Below, piece after piece: positions 3,240 through 63,420 of a stretch of 64,000 nucleotides of DNA (the first letter of the stretch is position 1; each line of letters begins with the position of its first letter). The position numbers and the translations under genes were made by a program. Source of the DNA: Arctopsyche grandis (Eukaryota > Arthropoda > Insecta > Trichoptera > Hydropsychidae); NCBI RefSeq assembly GCF_051622035.1, contig NC_135364.1:992001-1056000 (forward strand), given 5' to 3'. The notes below the pieces were generated by a model, which did not search any database, was not told where the DNA came from, and worked only from the letters and a program-made list of their open reading frames with translations.

Positions 3240-3821
3240 AATAATCGACGCATATTTATCTGTCATAGAAAAGAGTTTTTTTCATTATTATAAATTATCG
3301 TTTTGCAGATAATTTAATTCAAAAACTTATAAAAAGAGGACGCCTATGTACATATGTATAAGACGAGGTATCATTTCTGGTCAAATATTAACGTCATGTC
3401 GATAAGAATTTCAGTAACCGATACTAAGTTTCAGTTCAATAGGACTAACGGTAAATCCCCAAAATACACAGACCCACAGACACACACATTTTTTCTAGAT
3501 CATGAAAACGTAATCAGTAATCGATTCTGAGTCTGAATCAGTCAAAATCTCGAGTTCGAATTTTCGCATGATCATAAAACTTCATCTATTGTTACTACGT
3601 ACATATGTAGATAAAGTAAAAATGGCAAAGTTTGAAAACGATCGGATAATAACACAAACTTCGTTACACGACAAAATCGATTCTGAACTAAGAAGAGATT
3701 AGTAAAAATTCGACCACTTACGGATCGAACACAGAACCGACACATTTCTTTTAATTTTTTTTATTTAATAACTTAATATGCCACCACCCATGCGATGATA
3801 TGTCATCCGGTACAACACTAG
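3240..3821 (+). mobile_element. Rearranged Helitron fragments ending in a hairpin-CTAG terminus
   Basis: The right end has hairpin GATGATATGTCATC (3794-3807) and CTAG at 3818-3821 before T, the same terminus as at 325. Its left half (about 3300-3620) is the reverse complement of the 37.25-37.56 kb element, so pieces of opposite orientation are joined here. Confidence 0.5.
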
Positions 3822-5290: not shown

Positions 5291-6110
5291 GCCAATAAAA
5301 TGCTTGTAAGACTGTTGCTGTTGCTGTTTATTACCTGTATTGAAATGTTGTTATTACCTGTATTGGAATGAGACAATCCAGATTTATTTTTACAAGGATT
5401 TTATTGGCTTAACTTCGCCAATCGGTCTGACAAAATTCCTACATTCTTCCGATCGCTTTGAAACTTTGCTATTTTGCGAGGTTTAGCCGCCGATAGAGAT
5501 TATAATTGCTTTTGCTAATTCGACGGAGAAATATAATCGTAATAAACACGTTTAAGAATCCAAAAATTTTGGAGACGGTGACAGCTAACCCTTTGCCACT
5601 AGCCTGTAGCCTTATATGTTTGACTTTCCACCCCCCACTCGTTTTGTCAGATTTTAATTGTTTAAACACCTATAATTTTATCTTTTTCACACTATATCTT
5701 ATTGGAGTGTAAATCTCTATAGTTTAAGTAGAGCAAACATACAGAAAATGTACCATGTCGTAACATTAGCGTTCATAAGCGCCGCTTTGCGGTTGTTTTT
5801 AAAAGCTTCCGCTTGACATATCAGAATATATTCAAGTTTTTCATCTTGAATATATCCTTTTGAAGAATTGACGTTTGCGCCTTATGAAAAGTTTTTGGAT
5901 GTTATAGAGGATTTTAAAAGAATAAGAAATGATGATGGATGGTTTTCGTGACAGATTTCGATAGGGAGCTTGAAACAGGCCCGGTAACTAAAGGGTTAAG
6001 CAACAACAGACACAGACAATGGCACTTTCAACAAATAAACATAAATATTTGAACGTTTTTATTGTATGCTAATAGTGGGGTCGTAAATCTCGCCGATCAC
6101 TCCAGAGGAG
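5290..6110. other. Non-coding stretch with Helitron-like remnants
   Basis: 5390-5720 contains CTTCCGATCG, TTAATTGTTTAAACACCTAT and related phrases of the 9.47/12.46-kb repeat. Beyond that, TGAATATATCC/ATATATTCA forms a short inverted repeat near 5826-5855. No gene is seen. Confidence 0.35.
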
Positions 6111-6597
6111 GGTGGGGTTGGACATTTTAATAAATATATTGAGGTGTGTTGTCGTCTGTCCAATAAAACTGGTTATTAGGACCCACCGGAGTGCTTCTAC
6201 TATGAATGCACAAGGCGATGACACAAACACGTACTATAAATATATTTTTAAACCGTCGACGAATATATTCGTCTTCCTGTCGCCGCACAATGGAGGGTTA
6301 AATGAACAAAGGCCCGATTAAACCACATCGTTAAATTTAAATAAGAAATTTAAATTATTTAAAGTATCACATCTCACTAGTGGCCATGTTGGTGAACGGT
6401 CAAAACATCGCAAAAGAATCACTAAATTTTCTAAACGTTCATGAATAAAAATCGCTCCATTTGTAAGGATCGTGTATTGGCTGTAACTTTTGTGCAAATT
6501 TTCCAAGGAGCAGAAGTAGGTTTTTATAGATAAATTGAACGACCTCTGCTGACAAGGATATGTGGATGGCCACCTTTACTGACTAATGGTCAAGAAA

Positions 6598-7033: not shown

Positions 7034-7560
7034 TTTATTTATTTATAGTTAGTTTTGGACCATTGTGGCATTACAGGAAGAACCTAATGCGCCACAATGA
7101 CCTACATTTGATAAAGAAACATAAGTAAAATACATAAAATAAATAGCAAAAATGCGAAGGCAGAAAAACATGATAAAATGAAATACAAAAAAAAATAAAA
7201 AACAAAAGAAAAAAAAATAAACAAAGGTGTAAAAATCAAATAAATAAAATCCTCAAATCCTACTCTTAGTTTCACAATGAACAAAAGAATAAAAAAAATA
7301 GTAAAACAAAATAAAAAAAAAACACAGCGAGGCCCGAATGGAAGAGACTATCACATTCAAATTAAGAAAATAATGTTGAGCGCAGGTTACCAGATAAATA
7401 TGCTAAAATAATATCCGATAATCTACGCTCACTCAGGTGGAAAATATCGCATTCAGGCACGGCAGCAACGATTTCATTAAGAAGTCAAATAGCTCTTGGA
7501 ATAGGAGCCATTCGAAAAAGAACTGTGCGAGCAGGAGGTACAATCATCAAATGATGATTT
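7034..7560 (-). mobile_element. 3' end of a 5'-truncated LINE with terminal hairpin
   Basis: On the minus strand, remnants of the ORF2 C-terminus (VAAVPECDIFHLSERRLSDI, after a stop-interrupted RMAPIPRAI) lie at about 7545-7395. A very A/T-rich 3' UTR follows, then hairpin 7061-7099 (9-bp stem CATTGTGGC/GCCACAATG, 21-nt loop), and a (TAAA)n tail at 7049-7034. The C-terminal pattern (R, LN, D-I-F) parallels that of the RT fragment at 32 kb. Confidence 0.6.
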
Positions 7561-8252: not shown

Positions 8253-9066
8253 GGGTAAAAGTCGGAATTCTCGACAGGGGGACCCTCTAGGCTCGGTCGA
8301 CGCGCTCCTTCCTATCATTGGTTGCTCTTTGCAACTACTCTAGTATTGCCGTGCCCTGAATTAACTCGACTTTTACCTGATGAAATACTCCGACATATAC
8401 TGCCTGTTTCTCATATAATTTCTGACGGTTAGGCAGCGTACGGAAATATTCCACATATTGCGAATGGAATATACACGCATTCGTCTGTGGTTGAATACAA
8501 ATTCATCTAAATATGAATCAAAACGGGCACGCGTTGTGCCCAATTGACGCCTCATCTTTCCTTTCACACGCATCCACATATTTTACACATTTTGCGTATG
8601 TATTTCACTATCATTTGGATCCACGAAATTATAACCACTTTTACCGGAGTTCAGAATATTTCCGTACGCTGCCCAACCGTCCAACCATAACTGAGGGGTC
8701 ATGGGTTCATTCTCTAGCCCGGTGCTGCTGCCAGAGCTTGGATATATGTGACCAAAAATCGATTGCTGCAACAGTTCCATCAAAATTGGCAACCTATAGG
8801 GTGAAATAACATTGCGTTGAATGCGGCATGCGATTTTTTATATATATGTAGTTTTAGGTAAAAGTCGGGTTTCTAGACTGCTGTACGCTGCCCAACCGTT
8901 CAAAATTATATGCAAACCAGGCAGTATATGTTGGAGTATTTTATCAGGTAAAAGTTGAGTTCATTCAGGGCACGGCGATACTAAAGTACTTGCAAAGAGC
9001 AACCAATGACAAAGCCTCGCTTCCGAGCCTAGAGGGCCCGCCCTGTCGAGAATTCCGACTTTTGCC
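8253..9066. mobile_element. Inverted pair of short GGTAAAAGTCGG MITEs
   Basis: 8253-8453 and 8866-9066 are inverted copies of about 200 bp. Each includes a unit flanked by GGTAAAAGTCGGAATTC and GACTTTTACC, and CAGCGTACGG/GTACGCTGCCCAACCG phrases. The CGTACGCTGCC phrase occurs a third time near 8670. A SINE A fragment (about 8692-8800) lies between the arms. Confidence 0.5.
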
Positions 9067-15360: not shown

Positions 15361-15539
15361 TGATTTTTGAATGGCACATTTTGTTTAACAAGGGCCCTCA
15401 ACTACAACAAGTCGTGATCCAAATTTACAATAACCAAGTAACTTGAGATATCAACCTTTCAAATATTTGGACGCCAACGGAGATATACACTGCAACTGTT
15501 ACAGTGTAACGATAAAGTAATAATTCGTTTGTAACGTTA

Positions 15540-16380
15540 CGTTTTGCTCGCGAAATGCTCGCGAGCATTTTGTCGAGCGTCGTCTTTACCTTTAAATATT
15601 CGCACTGTTCTCTAAAAAGTTCGCAATATTCGACGGATAATTTACCGGTCACCATGATGCTACGAACGCTTCAATTTTGGTTGTGAAGTCACTACCTGAA
15701 CTGGCTAGAGTGGCTAAGCGAAATGCTCACGAGCATTATCGCGAGCATTGTCGCGAGCGTAGTCTTCACCATTATACATTCTTTTCACATTACATAAAAT
15801 GTTCATGATGTTCTTCTGACCATTCATTTATAACAATGAGTGATGTTATGAATGCTTCACTTGTGGTTGTGATATCACGACTTGAACAGGCTAGAGTGGC
15901 TCAGCGAAATGCTCGCGAGCATTTTCGCGAGCGTGGTCTTCACCATTACACATTCTTTTCACATTACATAAAATGTTCATGATGTTCTTCTGACGATTCG
16001 CTTGTAACAGTGAGTGACTTTATGTATGCTTTACGTGTGACGTCACGACCTGCAAACACACCAGACTGACTCGGCGAGATGATCGCGAGCATAGCTGCGA
16101 ACTTCATATTTTCCATTACATATTCGAACCCTTTTCTATACTTCGATATGTTCAGCTGACGATTAGCTTGTTACAGTGAGTAACGTTATGAATATTTCAC
16201 TTGTGAAGTCACGACTTGCCCACACCAGAGTGGCTCGGCGAGATGCTCGCGAGCATGGTCACGAAAGTTGTATTTTCCTTTACATATATATTCGAACCCT
16301 TCTCTATATGTAATTCGCGATGTTCAGCTGACAATTAACTTGTTACAGTGAGTGACGCTATGAATGCTTCACTTCATTAA
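15540..16380. repeat. Five-copy tandem array, about 170-bp unit with a 14-bp palindrome
   Basis: Units are marked by ATGCTCGCGAGCAT or one-base variants at 15555, 15723, 15909, 16079 and 16243 (spacings 168, 186, 170, 164). Each unit also has CATTACATATTC-like, ATGTTCATGATGTTC-like, GTTACAGTGAGTGA and GTGACGTCACGACTTG segments in the same order. Units are diverged (about 75-90% by eye), so the array is old. Confidence 0.8.
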
Positions 16381-16401
16381 AAATTAAAAATTAAATTGTA
16401 T

Positions 16402-16460
16402 CCAGGAAGGTGCATTTGGGTCTTCCTGTCAAGCCTTCCTGGTAAAATAAAATAAAATAT
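16402..16460 (+). mobile_element. Isolated SINE/LINE 3' tail with terminal hairpin
   Basis: CCAGGAAGG (16402-16410) pairs with CCTTCCTGG (16434-16442). The loop is GCATTTGGGTCTTCCTGTCA plus one base; an AAATAAAATAAAAT tail follows. The element body upstream is not recognisable. Confidence 0.6.
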
Positions 16461-23660: not shown

Positions 23661-23662
23661 AT

Positions 23663-23703
23663 ACCAGAAAGGCCTAACAGGTAAACCCAATTTGCCTTCC
23701 TGG
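23663..23703 (-). mobile_element. SINE/LINE 3' tail hairpin
   Basis: On the minus strand CCAGGAAGGC pairs with GCCTTTCTGG (one mismatch) around a loop with TTGGGTTTACCTGTTAG. A TATAAATAAAATAAATA tail follows. Confidence 0.55.
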
Positions 23704-23925
23704 CCAAAAATAATTACATCAACACATATTTTAGCAATCAACTGTGAGATTTTGGTATTTTTGCTAAAAATGAAATTAAAAAAAAAACCGTAAGACTTTG
23801 GACTGTAGTATGTGTGGCTCAAAATGTTGTAAATTATATAAGCTATCAACCCTTCAAGGCTTTGTATCGAGCTACCAAACACCCTGAATATATAAATAAA
23901 AATATCAAACATACATATGTATATA

Positions 23926-31329: not shown

Positions 31330-33080
31330 CATATCGAATCGCCATTATAATATAAACATTTTAACATTCATTATATAACCTATGAGTGAATTAAAAATAT
31401 ATATGAGAGATAATGAGAACCATTAATGCAAATTTTATAAGATATAGTGCGAAAAAGAAAATGTTATAGGCGTTTAAACAATTAAAATCTGACGAAGCGA
31501 GAGGGTGGCGGAAAGGCAGATAAATACAGCAACTTACCATTAGACGTCAAAATTGTAGCATGTTTTTTAAACTTGTCTATTTCGATTATTTTTCACCATC
31601 ATACTGGCGGATTTGATTTGAATATATTTTATTTTATTTTATTTTATTTTTATTAATTGAAAAATCAACAGACAGGATGTACAGAGATAGGTATAAAAAA
31701 AAACAAAAAGTAAATAAATAATATATGTAACATCCGAGTCCAATAATAGATTTTTACAAAAATGAAAAAGATAAATATAAGGAAAACAAATTAAAAAGTA
31801 AAGAATAAAGGCATGACAAAATATGTAGTACATTGCATAATTAAACTATAGTATTAAAATATTTGGAAAAGGTTATAAGATAGAATATAAGAAGAAATTG
31901 AAATTTACAAATATAAAAAACAAATGAAAAAGGTAAATACAAAATAAACAAATGAAAAGGAAAAGAATGAAAGCTATAATATGATTAAATAGCACATTAC
32001 ATAACTAAACTAAAGTATAAAAATAATGGAAATATTGAAAAAATAGAATAGGAGAAAAAATGAATCAATCGGTCAAGATTCTCTTGATGTTAGACCTGAA
32101 TTGATGTAGGGAAATACCAAACAGATCAACCTCATTCAGCTCTCCGTTAAACATACGATAAACGCGCTGCAGATAAAAATATTTTTGGGAATTAGTATTG
32201 AAAGGATCAAGTGAAAAGAGTGCAACGCGTCTAGAGTATCGAACTGGGATTCTGAAATTAACCTTATTCAGTAAATCAGAACAATCAAGAAAACCATTTA
32301 TGAGCTTAAAGAAGAATATAGCATCAGAATGTCGTCGCCTGACAGAAAGATTGTTAAAAGAAAGGATTTTTAAAATGTCGGAAGCAGTAGAATGGGTATA
32401 GGTAGGAAAAAGGTAGCGTAAGGATTTAATAAATTTAAGTTGAACTTTCTCAATACAATTAATATGGGATAAATAAAAAGGTGACCAGATAATTGAGGCA
32501 AATTCAAGGTGAGACCTTACGAAGGAAAAATAAAGTAATTTTAGTACATAAGGATCATTAAAGGGTTTTGTTGAGCGGAGTAGGAATCCAAGAGATTTAA
32601 ATGCTTTGTTGGTAATAAAAGAAATATGTTCAGAGAAATCTAGTTTATTATTGAGTATTACACCAAGATCCTTAATAGAAGATGACGTGTTAAGGATTGA
32701 ATGATTTAATTGATATTGATTAGTAATAATTGACTTATTTCTAGTGAAATTTAAAATAGAGCATTTTTCTAGATTAATAAAAAGATCATTATTTAAACAA
32801 TATATAGAGAATCTATCTAGATCTTCTTGTATCTTATGACAATCGTCTATGGTGTATATAGGTTTGTAAATTTTTAAATCATCAGCGTAAAGAAGTATAA
32901 AGGAATGTTTGAAGATGTATGAGATATATGTATATATTGTTGACCAAACCGCGCAAAATGGAAAAGTTTCAAAACCAAATGTTGTCAGACGAACGAGCGA
33001 AGGCAAACATAGAAGAGGCATGTAAAAAAAACCATTCGTTACCATTACAAATACCGATCGAAACCGGGTAAGACCACTAG
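31330..33080 (+). mobile_element. Helitron-like element split by the LINE insertion
   Basis: Left part 31330-31626 and right part 32926-33080 join into one repeat when compared with the copy near 14.69-14.90 kb, which runs through the join uninterrupted (GATTTAAATT to GACTAAACCG). The right part carries AAATGGAAAAGTTTCAAAAC and ends in CCGATCGAAACCGGGTAAGA followed by CCACTAG|T at 33077-33081. This matches a Helitron 3' end: a short hairpin, about ten bases, then CTRR before T. Confidence 0.6.
31627..32925 (-). mobile_element. 5'-truncated non-LTR retrotransposon (LINE), RT C-terminal half
   Basis: One long frame (stop at 32065) covers the end of a reverse transcriptase. It has the YADD catalytic box (FILLYADDLKIYKPI), then the thumb and C-terminal region typical of CR1/Jockey-type LINEs (KDLGVILNNKLDFSEHI, RSHLEFASIIWSPFYL, IEKVQLKFIKSLRYL). 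It ends with a C-terminal RVYRMFNGELNEVDLF motif. There is no upstream endonuclease or RT finger domain, so the copy is 5' truncated, as usual for target-primed insertion. A long A-rich 3' UTR follows, then a (TAAAA)n tail read on the minus strand (31627-31652). It sits inside an older Helitron-like repeat whose halves flank it. The reading frame itself is unbroken over about 290 codons. Confidence 0.85.
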
Positions 33081-33089
33081 TACCAACTC

Positions 33090-34020
33090 GGAATTCTCCA
33101 CATTAAATTGGTCCGGATTTGCTACATTACACTTTTCTTCAATGGCGATCCTTCTATGTGTAGACATTAAAAATAGTTAGAATATTTGAACAAGTCTTCG
33201 AGTGTCAGTTTTTGATGGGTCGAAATCAAGTATCCGTAGTAGGGTCGAAAAACATTTTTTCCCGGGTGTCGATAAGTAATACCACTGAAGCACGACGCCA
33301 ATGATTGATGACTTTACCCGAGAGGGGAAGAGGAAGAGGGAGATTCGGTGCAAAGCGTTGTTGTCCTAAAAGGTGATATTACACGTTCCGAGAATCATGA
33401 TTGACGATATGAAATGTAGATCAATCATCTGTTTAATCAATCAAATACCCATCGACGACGGCGCTGCCACCAGGTGGAGATGGGGGGAGGGGACGTCCAA
33501 AATTAGCAAAGTGGTGAATAAAAATAACACACACACACACACACATAATTTAATGATGATGTGTAATAAATCAATCCTATTATCCGGATGATCGTTGAAC
33601 GTAGGTTCGTCTGTGTCGAATGGAAGATGAAAGCGAAGCCAACTTTCGAAACGTTGCAATTTTTGAAGAGTCATCGTTCAGTCGCCGAGCACCGAGAGCG
33701 AAATATTCATGTCGTAAATTATAAAGTTGACGTGTAATGGAATTGGAGATCCGGTAGCTGCACTTCGTATGCAACAAGGTAGAGCGCATATTGATTGATC
33801 ATACCGGTTACGAGTGGTGGCAATTAATTTTCATCTATCAAACGGGAGCTATTTATTCATCATCATTTTTAGTGCGAGTCAAGTCATTTGATTTAATTTT
33901 TATATCTATATACATACGTGAATCGAGACGATTCCGTTAATGTAATGAAATGCTATTTATGTTTCAAATTTAACGGCCAAAACTGTCTAAGTACAATTTC
34001 TATAAATTGCTTATTTATTT
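33090..34020. other. Unique non-coding stretch with (CA)n
   Basis: (AC)n lies at 33527-33545. Opposed short frames overlap without domain resemblance. Nothing else is recognised. Confidence 0.3.
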
Positions 34021-38711: not shown

Positions 38712-39639
38712 GAATAATACAATGTGTATACTTTATAAACTGCCCATTGACTTTTGTAAAATTCAAATGCGTATTTTGGATTATCAAGATCAAGACTGAC
38801 ATGTGTATGAAAATGTTCCCGCTCAAGAGCGGGAAAGCAAAAAATTGTCTATAGACTCATTTGAGTGCTCCCCTCCACGGAAATCTTTAGTAAAAGGCGA
38901 AAGATTTATTCGTATTGAAGGGAAACCAGAGTAACTTTAGCTGACTGTTGGCGAATATATATACAGGAGTTTAACGCTAAGTATTGCACAATTTATTGGC
39001 AACTAGCGACATCTATCGAATTGTACACTTACTATGCATATCTAAAACTACAAGCAGTGCAAGCTTGCCCTTATGCATTTACATTTTTTTATTGTAAGAA
39101 TAAAAGTCAAGAGATTATGGATGTAGTTACAAATGTATAAGACCGTTACGGAAGTAGTAACGAAAAATGCTTGCTGTTTTTTTTTAAATTTATTTTATTT
39201 AATAGCTATCTCTTTTGCGGTAATTAGATTATTAGTCACATCACGATCGCCCAAAAGACAATTTTTGTCATGAATACCGCGAATACGGAATATTTGGCAT
39301 TCGATTTGTTAGTATGATAGTTATCGTTAGTATGATGAACTTTTCGGCTGCCGTTCAGATGCTCCGTTATAGAGATTTTAGTGACTTTTGGGCGAGCGCT
39401 TTGTGACCAATAATCACCGAACCCTTTTTTGCATATTTTTGGTGTAGTGGGGCCGAAGCAGGCCAGAGTGACATTTCGGCACTTTTTTTCTAAGCCGTGA
39501 TGCACTCAGTTACTTTTTTAAATTAGAAATTTTGAGTAAAATTTTGGCCTCAAATATTGATTTTCATACAAAATCGTGCTTTTATTTCGAAATTCGCAAA
39601 ACAGGAAAAAAATCGGCTTCTATTGATAGATTATATATA

Positions 39640-48169: not shown

Positions 48170-49268
48170 GCTCCTTTTAATTTTATGACGGCTTTTATAC
48201 GGTTAGGCATAGAATCTATTAAGTTTCTTAAAATGTCGATGGGGAAGTCTTCATACCATACTTTTTCAATGATCTCTTTTAATGATTGATGGCTAGACAC
48301 ATTTGTTTTACTAATCCTATATTTAATAGCCATCCATAAATTTTCAATTGGGTTTAAATCGGGACTATTCCCAGGCCATGTTAATGTCTTTACACCAAAT
48401 TCCTACAAATAAACCCGAACCTAATAAAAAGTAACAAAAATATTTCAGTTTTTTGATCGAAATATTATTAATTACATTCATTCATTAGTGAGTATTAATT
48501 TTATTCATTAAATAAAATTAATACTCACTAATTTAGCTCGATGACAAGGGGCAGAGTCATCTTGGAATATGACATCATCAGAATTTGAAAGATGGTTTTC
48601 CATTGATGGGATAAAACTTTTTTCTAGAATTTTTTTATATGCTATTCCATTAATGGAACCTTGCACAAACTGTATTCGACCAATTCCATAATAAGAAAAA
48701 CATCCCCAAACCATGTGGCTTGGGGCATGCTTCACTGTCTCAGGGTACATTTTTGGTCGAATCTTTCTCCAACTTTTCTTCGAACATACGGAAAACCATT
48801 TGAGCTGAAGAGGTTAAATTTCGACTCATCAGAAAATATGACTTGTCGCCAATCCGATTTCGACCACTCTAATCGGTTTTTCATAATTTTCTTCGTAAGT
48901 AATGGTTTTTTCGCAGGTTTCCGAGCGTGCAGTCCAGCTTCTCTGAGTCGTTTTCTTAAGGTTACATCACTAATTTCAATTGAAAATTGATCCGAGATCT
49001 CTTTTCTTATCTCTACAGCAGTTTTGAACCGTTGCCGTAAAGATAATAGAGTTATCAAGCGATCTTGTCTCTCGGATGTGCATCTTTTCGGTCCTGTCCT
49101 CTTCTTACGAGCAAAAGTTCCAGAATCCTTTTTCTTTTTCATTATTCTTGACACAGTAGATACAGAAAGTCCCATTTATTGAGAAATTGATCGCAATGAA
49201 TGACCAGAGTCTACCAAAGCCGTGATTTTTATATTCTCCTCCAATGATAGTTGAGTGTATTGTTGCAT
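48170..49268 (-). pseudogene. Tc1-type DD34E transposase pseudogene
   Basis: Starts at ATG 49268-49266 (MQQYTQLSLEEN). The N-terminal half is a helix-turn-helix DNA-binding region (SISQ-stop-MGLSVSTVSRI, then a second HTH around ISDVTLRKRLREAGL). Catalytic residues are visible: first Asp in VIFSDESKFNLF, second in VIFQDDSAPCHRAK, Glu in SPDLNPIENLW; the second Asp to Glu spacing is 34 once an insertion is removed. Lesions: a stop right after SISQ near 49177; a one-base loss in an A run near 48750 that shifts frame before YPETVKHAPSHMVWG; an insertion of about 107 bp after HRAKL (about 48417-48523); and a stop six codons later. The C-terminus (DFPIDILRNLIDSMPNRI) and stop at 48170 are intact. 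Few lesions suggest a fairly recent death. Confidence 0.9.
48484..48532. repeat. Perfect 22-bp inverted repeat inside the Tc1 transposase
   Basis: Arms 48484-48505 and 48511-48532 are exactly complementary with a 5-base spacer (CATTA). One arm carries GTGAGT, a consensus splice donor on the minus strand, directly after the HRAKL codons. TTATTAG, a plausible acceptor, lies about 107 bp downstream. It could be a small hairpin insertion or an intron. Confidence 0.75.
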
Positions 49269-60368: not shown

Positions 60369-60819
60369 TATTTATTTATTTTTTTACATATATATATACC
60401 AGGAAGGCCTTACAGGTAAACCCCAATGCGCCTTCCTGGCCAATTACAAATTACAATTACAATGCAGCATTTTTATTAAAGGTCGTTGAATTACGAGATA
60501 CTGAAAAACTTGCAAATTAACGAGACATCTATGAATTGTACATCAATCATACTTCAAATAGTGGTGACATAGTAGATAGGAAGGATTTATAGCCAATTTT
60601 TTAAACGGGAACATTTTTTAAACCGTTTCAACAATGAAATCAGAGAAAATTGGCAAACTCTGAAACAATCGACCTGAAGTCACAATATCCAAGTCTGACC
60701 AGCAGCACTACAGATGTACTCAGAAAAAATTATTTTCCAATCGAGGTCAGCTCATGGGATCGAACCCGGCGCCTCTCGATGTTAAGCAGAAGCTTAACGA
60801 CCGAGCTATGCTGCTGGCT
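60369..60819 (-). mobile_element. Full-length tRNA-derived SINE, family B
   Basis: Minus strand: head AGCATAGCTCGGTCGTTAAG (A box) and GGGTTCGATCCCATGAGCTG (B box at 60767-60756), resembling a tRNA-Lys-type head. It shares the central CAGACTTGG and CTGATTTCATTGTTGAAACG parts with family A. It ends in a perfect 10-bp hairpin (60439-60399) and an AT-rich tail. Confidence 0.85.
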
Positions 60820-61139
60820 AGTGACAGTTATTATGGAAATTCGTATGTTTTTTGATTAAAAATCGAAATTGAATAAAAATAATACAATATAATACACTAG
60901 CTTAATCCGGCATGCGTTGCAATGCCAGAATAACGCATGTAATTCCCGTTTCCGTCCCCGTTTGGTTGCAGCTCAGCTTGTGTCTCTTCAAATGCTGCTG
61001 GCTAAATTTGTACCGTAGCAATCGATTTTACTAGACCAGATCAAGAGGTAAATCAGCTAATCACGATGGAAATATGGAAAATATTTCGGAGATTATATTT
61101 AAAAACCTGTTTATAAAAAAGACTTGTACTGTACTGTCT

Positions 61140-62662: not shown

Positions 62663-62995
62663 GTGCACCGTGTGAAGCTACGCCTCTCATCATTGGAATC
62701 TATGCACGCGTTCCATGCCGCACTCTTGAGTTTGTGCTTACTATTAAATATACACTTTTTAGCCGTATTTAGATGTATCCATCGCAGTCTTCATAACTTT
62801 CAAATTATTTGCAAGCCTAACCTAACTTGGCCCAAACAGTTTTTTGAACACTTCAATGATATATGTTTACGCTTTTATTATTTTTATTTTATTTTATTCC
62901 TATACATATATGCCTGAAAAGCCCAAAGCGGTTTCCTAGTCAGTTAACAAACAATTAGACAGTATCATAGAGACAGATTGGGAAGCATTTTATAG

Positions 62996-63420
62996 CCAGC
63001 AGCATAGCTCGGTCGTTTAACTTCTGCCTAACACCGAGAGGCGTCGGGTTCTATCCCATGAGCTGACCTCAATTGAAAATAATTTTTCTGAATATATCTG
63101 TGGTGCTGCTGGTCATACCTGGATATTTGTGACTCCAGGTTGATCGTTTCCTATCAGAGTTTGCTAATTTCTCTGATTTCATTGTTGAAATGGTTCCCGA
63201 TTAAAATTGGCTAAAAACCTTCCTACCTACTATGTCACCACTATTTGAGCATGATTAATGTACAATAAAATGTATGTGCAATTCATAAATGTCTCGTTAA
63301 TTTGCCAGTTTTTCAGTGTCTTGTAATTCAGTGATTTGTGTAATTAAAAAATGCTGCATTGTTTGTAATTGGCTAGGAAGCGCATTGGGTTTTACCTGTA
63401 AGGCCTTCCTAGTATAAAAA
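62996..63420 (+). mobile_element. Full-length tRNA-derived SINE, family B
   Basis: A box (TAGCTCGGTCGTTTAAC, 63005) and B box (GGGTTCTATCCC, 63046). The body aligns throughout with the 60.4-60.8-kb copy in opposite orientation. The 3' hairpin is at 63373-63412 and an A-rich tail follows from 63413. Confidence 0.85.

Follow-up and report, generated by a model that had tools for sequence, protein, structure and literature searches.

The closest described counterparts of the elements analysed here come from fish and monocots. As set out in the available part of Hayashi et al. 2014 (PMC4176376), the zebrafish L2-clade LINEs ZfL2-1 and ZfL2-2 resemble the present elements in carrying a 3' stem-loop before terminal repeats, with a stem that is exchangeable between LINEs and a loop that is specific. 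Each of the two still moves with the stem of the other, one of them about half as fast; movement ceases or nearly ceases when the loop is replaced or the stem left unpaired. The protein region between the endonuclease and the reverse transcriptase (RT) binds stems in general but is specific for the loop. That paper also reports that in the eel LINE UnaL2 a change of stem sequence sharply lowered activity and that a bulge in the stem was needed. UnaL2, which PMC3747384 mentions as well, mobilises a SINE via a common 3' stem-loop tail, as we propose below for an insect pair. L1-clade LINEs and SINEs of monocots likewise have a common tail hairpin of about 50 nt, in which the loop is conserved and stem changes are compensatory (Ohshima, PMC3747384, available sections).

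In insects, the lepidopteran SINEs HaSE1, HaSE2 and PxSE are tRNA-derived and, like the SINE B and SINE C families described below, have a common central domain and different 3' ends, one of which is LINE-like (PMC3272025, PMC8010984, available text). The partner of HaSE1, which we set beside SINE B by description, is an RTE LINE, and the words stem-loop and hairpin are absent from the main texts of these two papers as available (PMC3272025, PMC8010984). Our literature search, whose coverage took in few subscription papers, found no insect LINE/SINE pair with a covarying hairpin of this type.

A LINE/SINE 3' hairpin with a variable stem is a known kind of structure, with fish and monocot precedents. 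ZfL2 differs from the present elements in LINE group and in having another, larger structured loop, and the ZfL2 stem swap was made in the laboratory, whereas the stem differences here are natural and known from sequence alone (PMC4176376, available part). The monocot tails differ in belonging to the plant L1 clade and in their conserved UCU loop and CGAG flank, and the internal loop and inner stem present here are not described for them in the available text of PMC3747384. UnaL2 activity is stem-sensitive (PMC4176376, available part), whereas the stems of our principal pair, LINE A and SINE B, differ at four pairs. To the known cases the present one adds an insect LINE group, a loop that is itself structured, several stems within a single genome, and a SINE stem for which no LINE counterpart has so far been found. 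On one kind of loop this genome sets four or more clearly distinct natural stems, carried by abundant SINEs and by LINE families whose ORFs are open, and with these existing variants it can be tested what the LINE enzyme reads in the 3' tail. In this insect case covariation, beyond sequence likeness, backs the common LINE/SINE tail structure.

The 3' hairpins of LINE A and SINE B

The window, a stretch of 64,000 nt (positions 992001-1056000 of one contig), contains a 5'-truncated LINE A copy at 7034..7557 (minus strand), comprising the end of ORF2, a T-rich 3' UTR, a hairpin and AAAT-like repeats. The first-pass annotation had recognised a LINE 3' end at 7034-7560; a 5'-truncated end at about 7557-7034 is supported by a filled/empty comparison with 8689..8811 (plus), a host-repeat paralogue without the LINE that stands in for the empty site; in tblastn, residues 632-697 of the LINE A ORF2 match 7562-7365 at 86% identity. 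The LINE A hairpin spans 7060..7102 (minus), with arms 5' GGTCATTGTGGC and 3' GCCACAATGG enclosing a 21-nt structured loop at 7070-7090. Its family form folds at -26.2 kcal/mol (z -6.2); in the window copy the first C of CCA is replaced by T. A SINE B copy with a putative tRNA-like head, a body and a LINE-like tail lies at 60395..60820 (minus), its hairpin at 60399..60441 (minus; stem GGCCAGGAAGGC/GCCTTCCTGG, loop GCATTGGGGTTTACCTGTAAG) folding at -26.5 kcal/mol (z -4.4). Both hairpins fall within a few bases of where they had first been placed, and direct comparison returns the same figure for their loops as before, 21 nt each with 16 of 21 positions identical.

A second SINE B copy (62993..63416, plus), matching the first at 80.5%, has a hairpin with a decayed stem at 63372-63413. 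SINE B-type hairpins without a recognised SINE body upstream are found at 16401..16443 (plus; variant loop GCATTTGGGTCTTCCTGTCAA) and, in degenerate form, at 23661..23706 (minus). Directly upstream of the hairpin at 16401-16443 is a tandem-like repeat of about 170 nt (15513-16374, plus). When the window was scanned with a pattern covering both loops and up to three mismatches, 4 matches were obtained against 0.04 expected; a looser loop pattern gave the same 4 against 0.53 expected, a number reached in 1 of 100 shuffles. A-box-like and B-box-like words are visible by eye in SINE B, and ARAGORN predicted no tRNA gene in the window.

The loop had been read as open. RNAalifold and single folds instead place an inner stem, RGG/CCU, under a loop of 4-5 nt (a pentaloop in LINE A and SINE B). 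Folding energies of four 46-nt copies range from -21.0 to -26.5 kcal/mol (z -4.3 to -6.2), and none of 200 shuffles of each folds as well. Three of the five LINE/SINE loop differences lie in the pentaloop; a fourth turns A-U into G-U and so preserves pairing, and the fifth falls on the final base of the loop. Conservation is thus seen in the inner stem and on both sides of the internal loop. In the RNA, an outer stem of 10-12 bp leads to the internal loop, GCNUU/GUNA(U), above which a 3-bp inner stem, RGR/YCU, carries an apical loop of 4-5 nt; A-rich AAAT-like repeats follow the hairpin.

The stems, first described as unrelated, correspond at six of ten pairs. In fetched copies the family form of LINE A is GGCCA-TTGT-GGC[GCATTAGGTTCTTCCTGTAAT]GCC-ACAA-TGG and that of SINE B is GGCCA-GGAA-GGC[GCATTGGGGTTTACCTGTAAK]GCC-TTCC-TGG. 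Both consensuses have CCA/TGG and GGC/GCC. In the middle, TTGT/ACAA of LINE A stands against GGAA/TTCC of SINE B, so that four pairs are exchanged with pairing kept, all of them compensatory changes. The rough chance that four differences per arm all fall on partners and all pair is 6e-5, on the assumption that changes are equal and independent. Judged from these sequences, the LINE A and SINE B stems are homologous. The homology is confined to the tail: alignments of SINE B with LINE A contexts start at the hairpin or at most 25 nt upstream, in A/T-rich flank, and run to the end, so that the LINE and the SINE share a 3' tail and little else. We therefore rejected the reading, named in the first-pass annotation as one that would overturn its claim, that one family is a fragment of the other with its stem. 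One exception to tail-only homology is L114/L115, a truncated LINE end inside a SINE-like repeat; in L115 (minus strand, near 1903) about 200 nt of a truncated LINE A end apparently lie within such a repeat.

Covariation was assessed in a 24-row alignment (A2). Of 27 distinct hairpins it takes in 23, and a further row is window:7056-7101, which has the same hairpin as L094; L095:1219, L129:4475, window:63370 and window:23661, with broken, duplicated or shifted arms, were left out. Because RNAalifold omitted the outermost pairs, pairs were counted on structures that we named ourselves. In these, 94.2% of named-stem cells are paired (79.7 shuffled), and the covariation score is 0.41, compared with 0.168 shuffled and 0.05-0.12 when partners are slid by 1-3 columns. 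Cells with two-sided changes number 31 against 11.4 shuffled, with 0 of 500 shuffles as high; pairs with two-sided changes, 4 against a shuffled mean of 4.5, show no excess, and neither do further pair types (10 against 10.0). By these shuffle and slide controls, which ignore kinship, covariation exceeds the controls in score and in cell count; a lack of significant covariation had been the other result that was to count against the first-pass claim. Folding and covariation together establish a conserved tail stem-loop: the hairpins are real, covarying and common to LINEs and SINEs.

Families, counts and copy ages in the genome

Other LINE families have the same architecture on other stems. 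Families B and C are 44% identical to the LINE A ORF2 over matched segments and 41% identical to each other. Family B (L123) has the stem AGCACACTCGTC/GACGAGTGTGCT and the loop GCTTTGGAGCAATCTGTTA; family C (L133) has the stem GGCCACAGCGAC/GTCACTGTGGCT, with one mismatch, and the loop GCGTTGGAGATCTCTGTAAT. Thirteen further LINE 3' ends were fetched: the LINE A stem with another loop occurs in 3 of 3 ends of subfamily A2 (90% to LINE A), the known hairpin in the single end of LINE A1, and family C's own hairpin in 9 of 9 (for L165 the top match belongs to a SINE next to it; its family C hairpin was found separately). LINE B2 (L129 near 1110) has no visible ORF, and LINE D (L097 near 2302), which emerged when hairpins of any kind were sought 3' of a weak protein match (32% over 105 aa), is tentatively a hairpin-bearing LINE. 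A clear hairpin of this kind is absent from the weak LINE relatives L120, L109, L102, L126, L101 and others, several of which are fragments. The window provides an internal negative in a distant LINE of the same wider group (32065..33102, minus; E 1.9e-69 to the clade profile; 26.5% over 283 aa), downstream of which scanning and reading found no such hairpin.

A second SINE family, SINE C (L104 near 5715-6170, plus; L116, minus strand, near 3498), joins a SINE B-like core sequence to a terminal hairpin that resembles the LINE B tail in both stem and loop, and would appear to be the product of a tail exchange on a core common with SINE B. An alignment of 14 hand-picked representatives (A3), with kinship ignored in the statistics, has 95.6% of cells paired, with two-sided changes at 9 of 10 outer and 1 of 3 inner pairs; the hairpins not taken up include a weak hit in L102, L111 (3602) and the window copy at 63372-63413. 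Its covariation score is 0.823, against a shuffled mean of 0.264 and 0.077-0.213 with slid partners, and 0 of 500 shuffles reach it; the count of two-sided pairs, 10 against a shuffled mean of 7.8, is reached by 27 of 500. The variable internal-loop letters in A3 columns 15 and 31 tend to change jointly (A..A, T..T, G..A and T..C, but also T..A), which may indicate a non-standard contact.

Across the 475.7-Mb assembly (189 contigs), the first loop pattern has 1,717 + 1,711 exact matches (3,428), against 0 + 0 for the same pattern written backwards. Exact LINE-stem cores number 690 + 674 (1,364) and exact SINE-stem cores 1,340 + 1,405 (2,745), each with 0 in the reversed-pattern control.

Young copies are present in LINE A, LINE C and two SINE B subfamilies. 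The best 64 of 17,926 LINE A candidates match the query at 90-100% identity (59 of them at 96% or more), and by our own count 19 of these 64 scored copies hold open 989-aa frames; in family C, the best 150 of 11,972 candidates are 95-100% identical, with 6 in 972-aa open frames. As best candidates, these scored matches document young copies and not the spread of ages. For SINE B, 19 copies with a recognised head were each compared to the nearest other copy. Six copies with loop GTTTA-T (two representing one locus, L099/L120) are at 98.8-99.8%, and in the ATTTA/ATTTT group five of six are at 99.0-99.8% and one at 95.7%. The four GTTTA-G copies are at 89.8-93.4% and include the window's own copy (60395..60820), which at 93.4% belongs to an older subfamily. 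As for the other three, L160 and L161 are identical and may be a duplication, and L162 is at 95.7%. Since two SINE B subfamilies lie at 98.8-99.8% identity, their helper must have been active recently.

Reading of the tail and origin of the SINE B stem

Taking folding, covariation, copy number, several LINE and two SINE families and tail-only homology as given by the analysis, we infer how the protein reads the tail and what mobilises SINE B. The hairpin is probably the 3' template-recognition element of a stringent-type insect LINE clade, carried by the SINEs so that the RT copies them. By analogy with zebrafish ZfL2 and the monocot L1/SINE tails, recognition is most likely by loop sequence and stem shape: for an ORF2 protein of the LINE A type, sequence would matter in the internal loop and the inner stem but mainly shape in the outer stem, which would for that reason be open to rewriting pair by pair. 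LINE A or a close relative could then move SINE B in spite of the four of ten stem pairs at which LINE A and SINE B differ. The shared hairpin, the young copies on both sides and the GGAA-stem LINE that our searches did not find incline us, by a modest margin, towards LINE A itself as the mover of SINE B. If so, a SINE stem may drift pair by pair from that of its helper, the enzyme reading only the geometry of the outer stem. It is conceivable, and close to an even call, that SINE B, with a stem absent from the LINEs of this genome, nevertheless owes its recent amplification to a LINE whose own stem differs, the evolved equivalent of a stem swap in which the loop is kept.

The chief rival to mobilisation by LINE A holds that SINE B took its whole tail, together with the GGAA stem (CCAGGAAGGC), from a different LINE of the clade, which has since been lost, become rare or diverged. 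On this view the stems parted between LINE families and not within the SINE, and the partner could be a LINE other than LINE A. We regard this as unlikely, although the LINE families of the genome do differ in stem, both LINE and SINE stems vary in monocots (PMC3747384, available text), and the window holds two old hairpins of the GGAA type next to which no SINE body was recognised. The SINE C tail, like that of LINE B in stem and loop, also speaks for such a donor; it hints that SINEs may normally copy the donor stem, against the reading that we prefer. Against a lost donor stands the distribution of the two stems over 77 distinct contexts in the window and the fetched loci, which were mostly first hits on contig C1 and thus a non-random sample in which other stems were also sought. 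Upstream of the 48 contexts with a GGAA-type or decayed GGAA stem is a SINE in 45, neither element in 3 and a LINE in none; upstream of the 29 TTGT-type contexts is a LINE in 19, neither in 9 and a SINE in one, probably mislabelled (L129:4487), in which the 5' arm is broken and the 3' arm GGAA-type. Sixteen copies fetched for a loop match without a stem match are single decayed members of the GGAA or TTGT class, except L187 and L179, in which the 5' arm is more broken. In SINE B copies a T precedes GGCC. The SINE B stem and loop with a letter other than T there occur at 12 places genome-wide, and the five that were read are all SINEs (L162, L196-L199), with no LINE bearing the SINE B stem among them; this search is blind to a LINE with T at that position or with a different loop. 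The recent activity of the helper, seen in the two young SINE B subfamilies, likewise argues against a donor that has disappeared.

Two further observations temper the preferred reading, in which LINE A moves SINE B and the outer stem is read by shape. The window's own SINE B copy is from the older subfamily, and the stem sensitivity reported for UnaL2, with its needed bulge, weighs against shape-only reading of the stem. The hairpin could also be conserved for another role, such as RNA stability, 3'-end formation or particle assembly, and the present analysis bears on sequence and fold. We consider this very improbable, as in LINEs and SINEs with nothing else in common the hairpin directly precedes the terminal repeats, the position at which fish LINEs are read (PMC4176376, available part). 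That unrelated hairpins came by chance or convergence to have similar loops is extremely unlikely: a 16/21 match singled out in a long sequence might owe its likeness to selection among coincidences, but the 4 window matches against 0.04 expected, the 3,428 genomic matches against 0, the six common and four compensatory stem pairs, the other LINE families with the same architecture and a block-shuffled control of 337 kb (0 hairpins, against 28 distinct ones in DNA mostly fetched for the motif) all speak against it.

Relatives of the LINE protein and other features of the window

That the LINE codes for a reverse transcriptase is evident from L117, whose 697-aa frame matches PF00078 at 9.6e-27, RVT_1 being the only Pfam domain found in it; several relatives of the protein have PF03372 together with RVT_1. 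The LINE group is a candidate for the Jockey superfamily (CR1/L2/Jockey-like). At least 120 relatives of the protein were listed, and the 12 that carry an organism name come from what we take to be 11 Lepidoptera and one wasp, Cotesia. Bacterial genome bins contain 11 relatives, 26-44% identical in the best segment, and a hairpin scan of one of them (L150) gave no match. Among viral contigs no relative of the protein was confirmed. The loop pattern was found in 91 stretches of public viral contigs; none of the 90 matches scored has a 10-pair stem, the best 3 having 7 flanking pairs by a lax count, and the loop pattern extended by the inner end of the outer stem returned 0 stretches. Within the window, Pfam gave nothing for the LINE frame 32065-33102 or the 64-residue LINE end, and the only Rfam hit at the gathering threshold is U5 spliceosomal RNA, at 38815-38934 (minus; 101.8 bits). 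A Tc1/Tc3-like transposase fragment lies at 48732-49175 (minus; PF01498, 2.1e-17).
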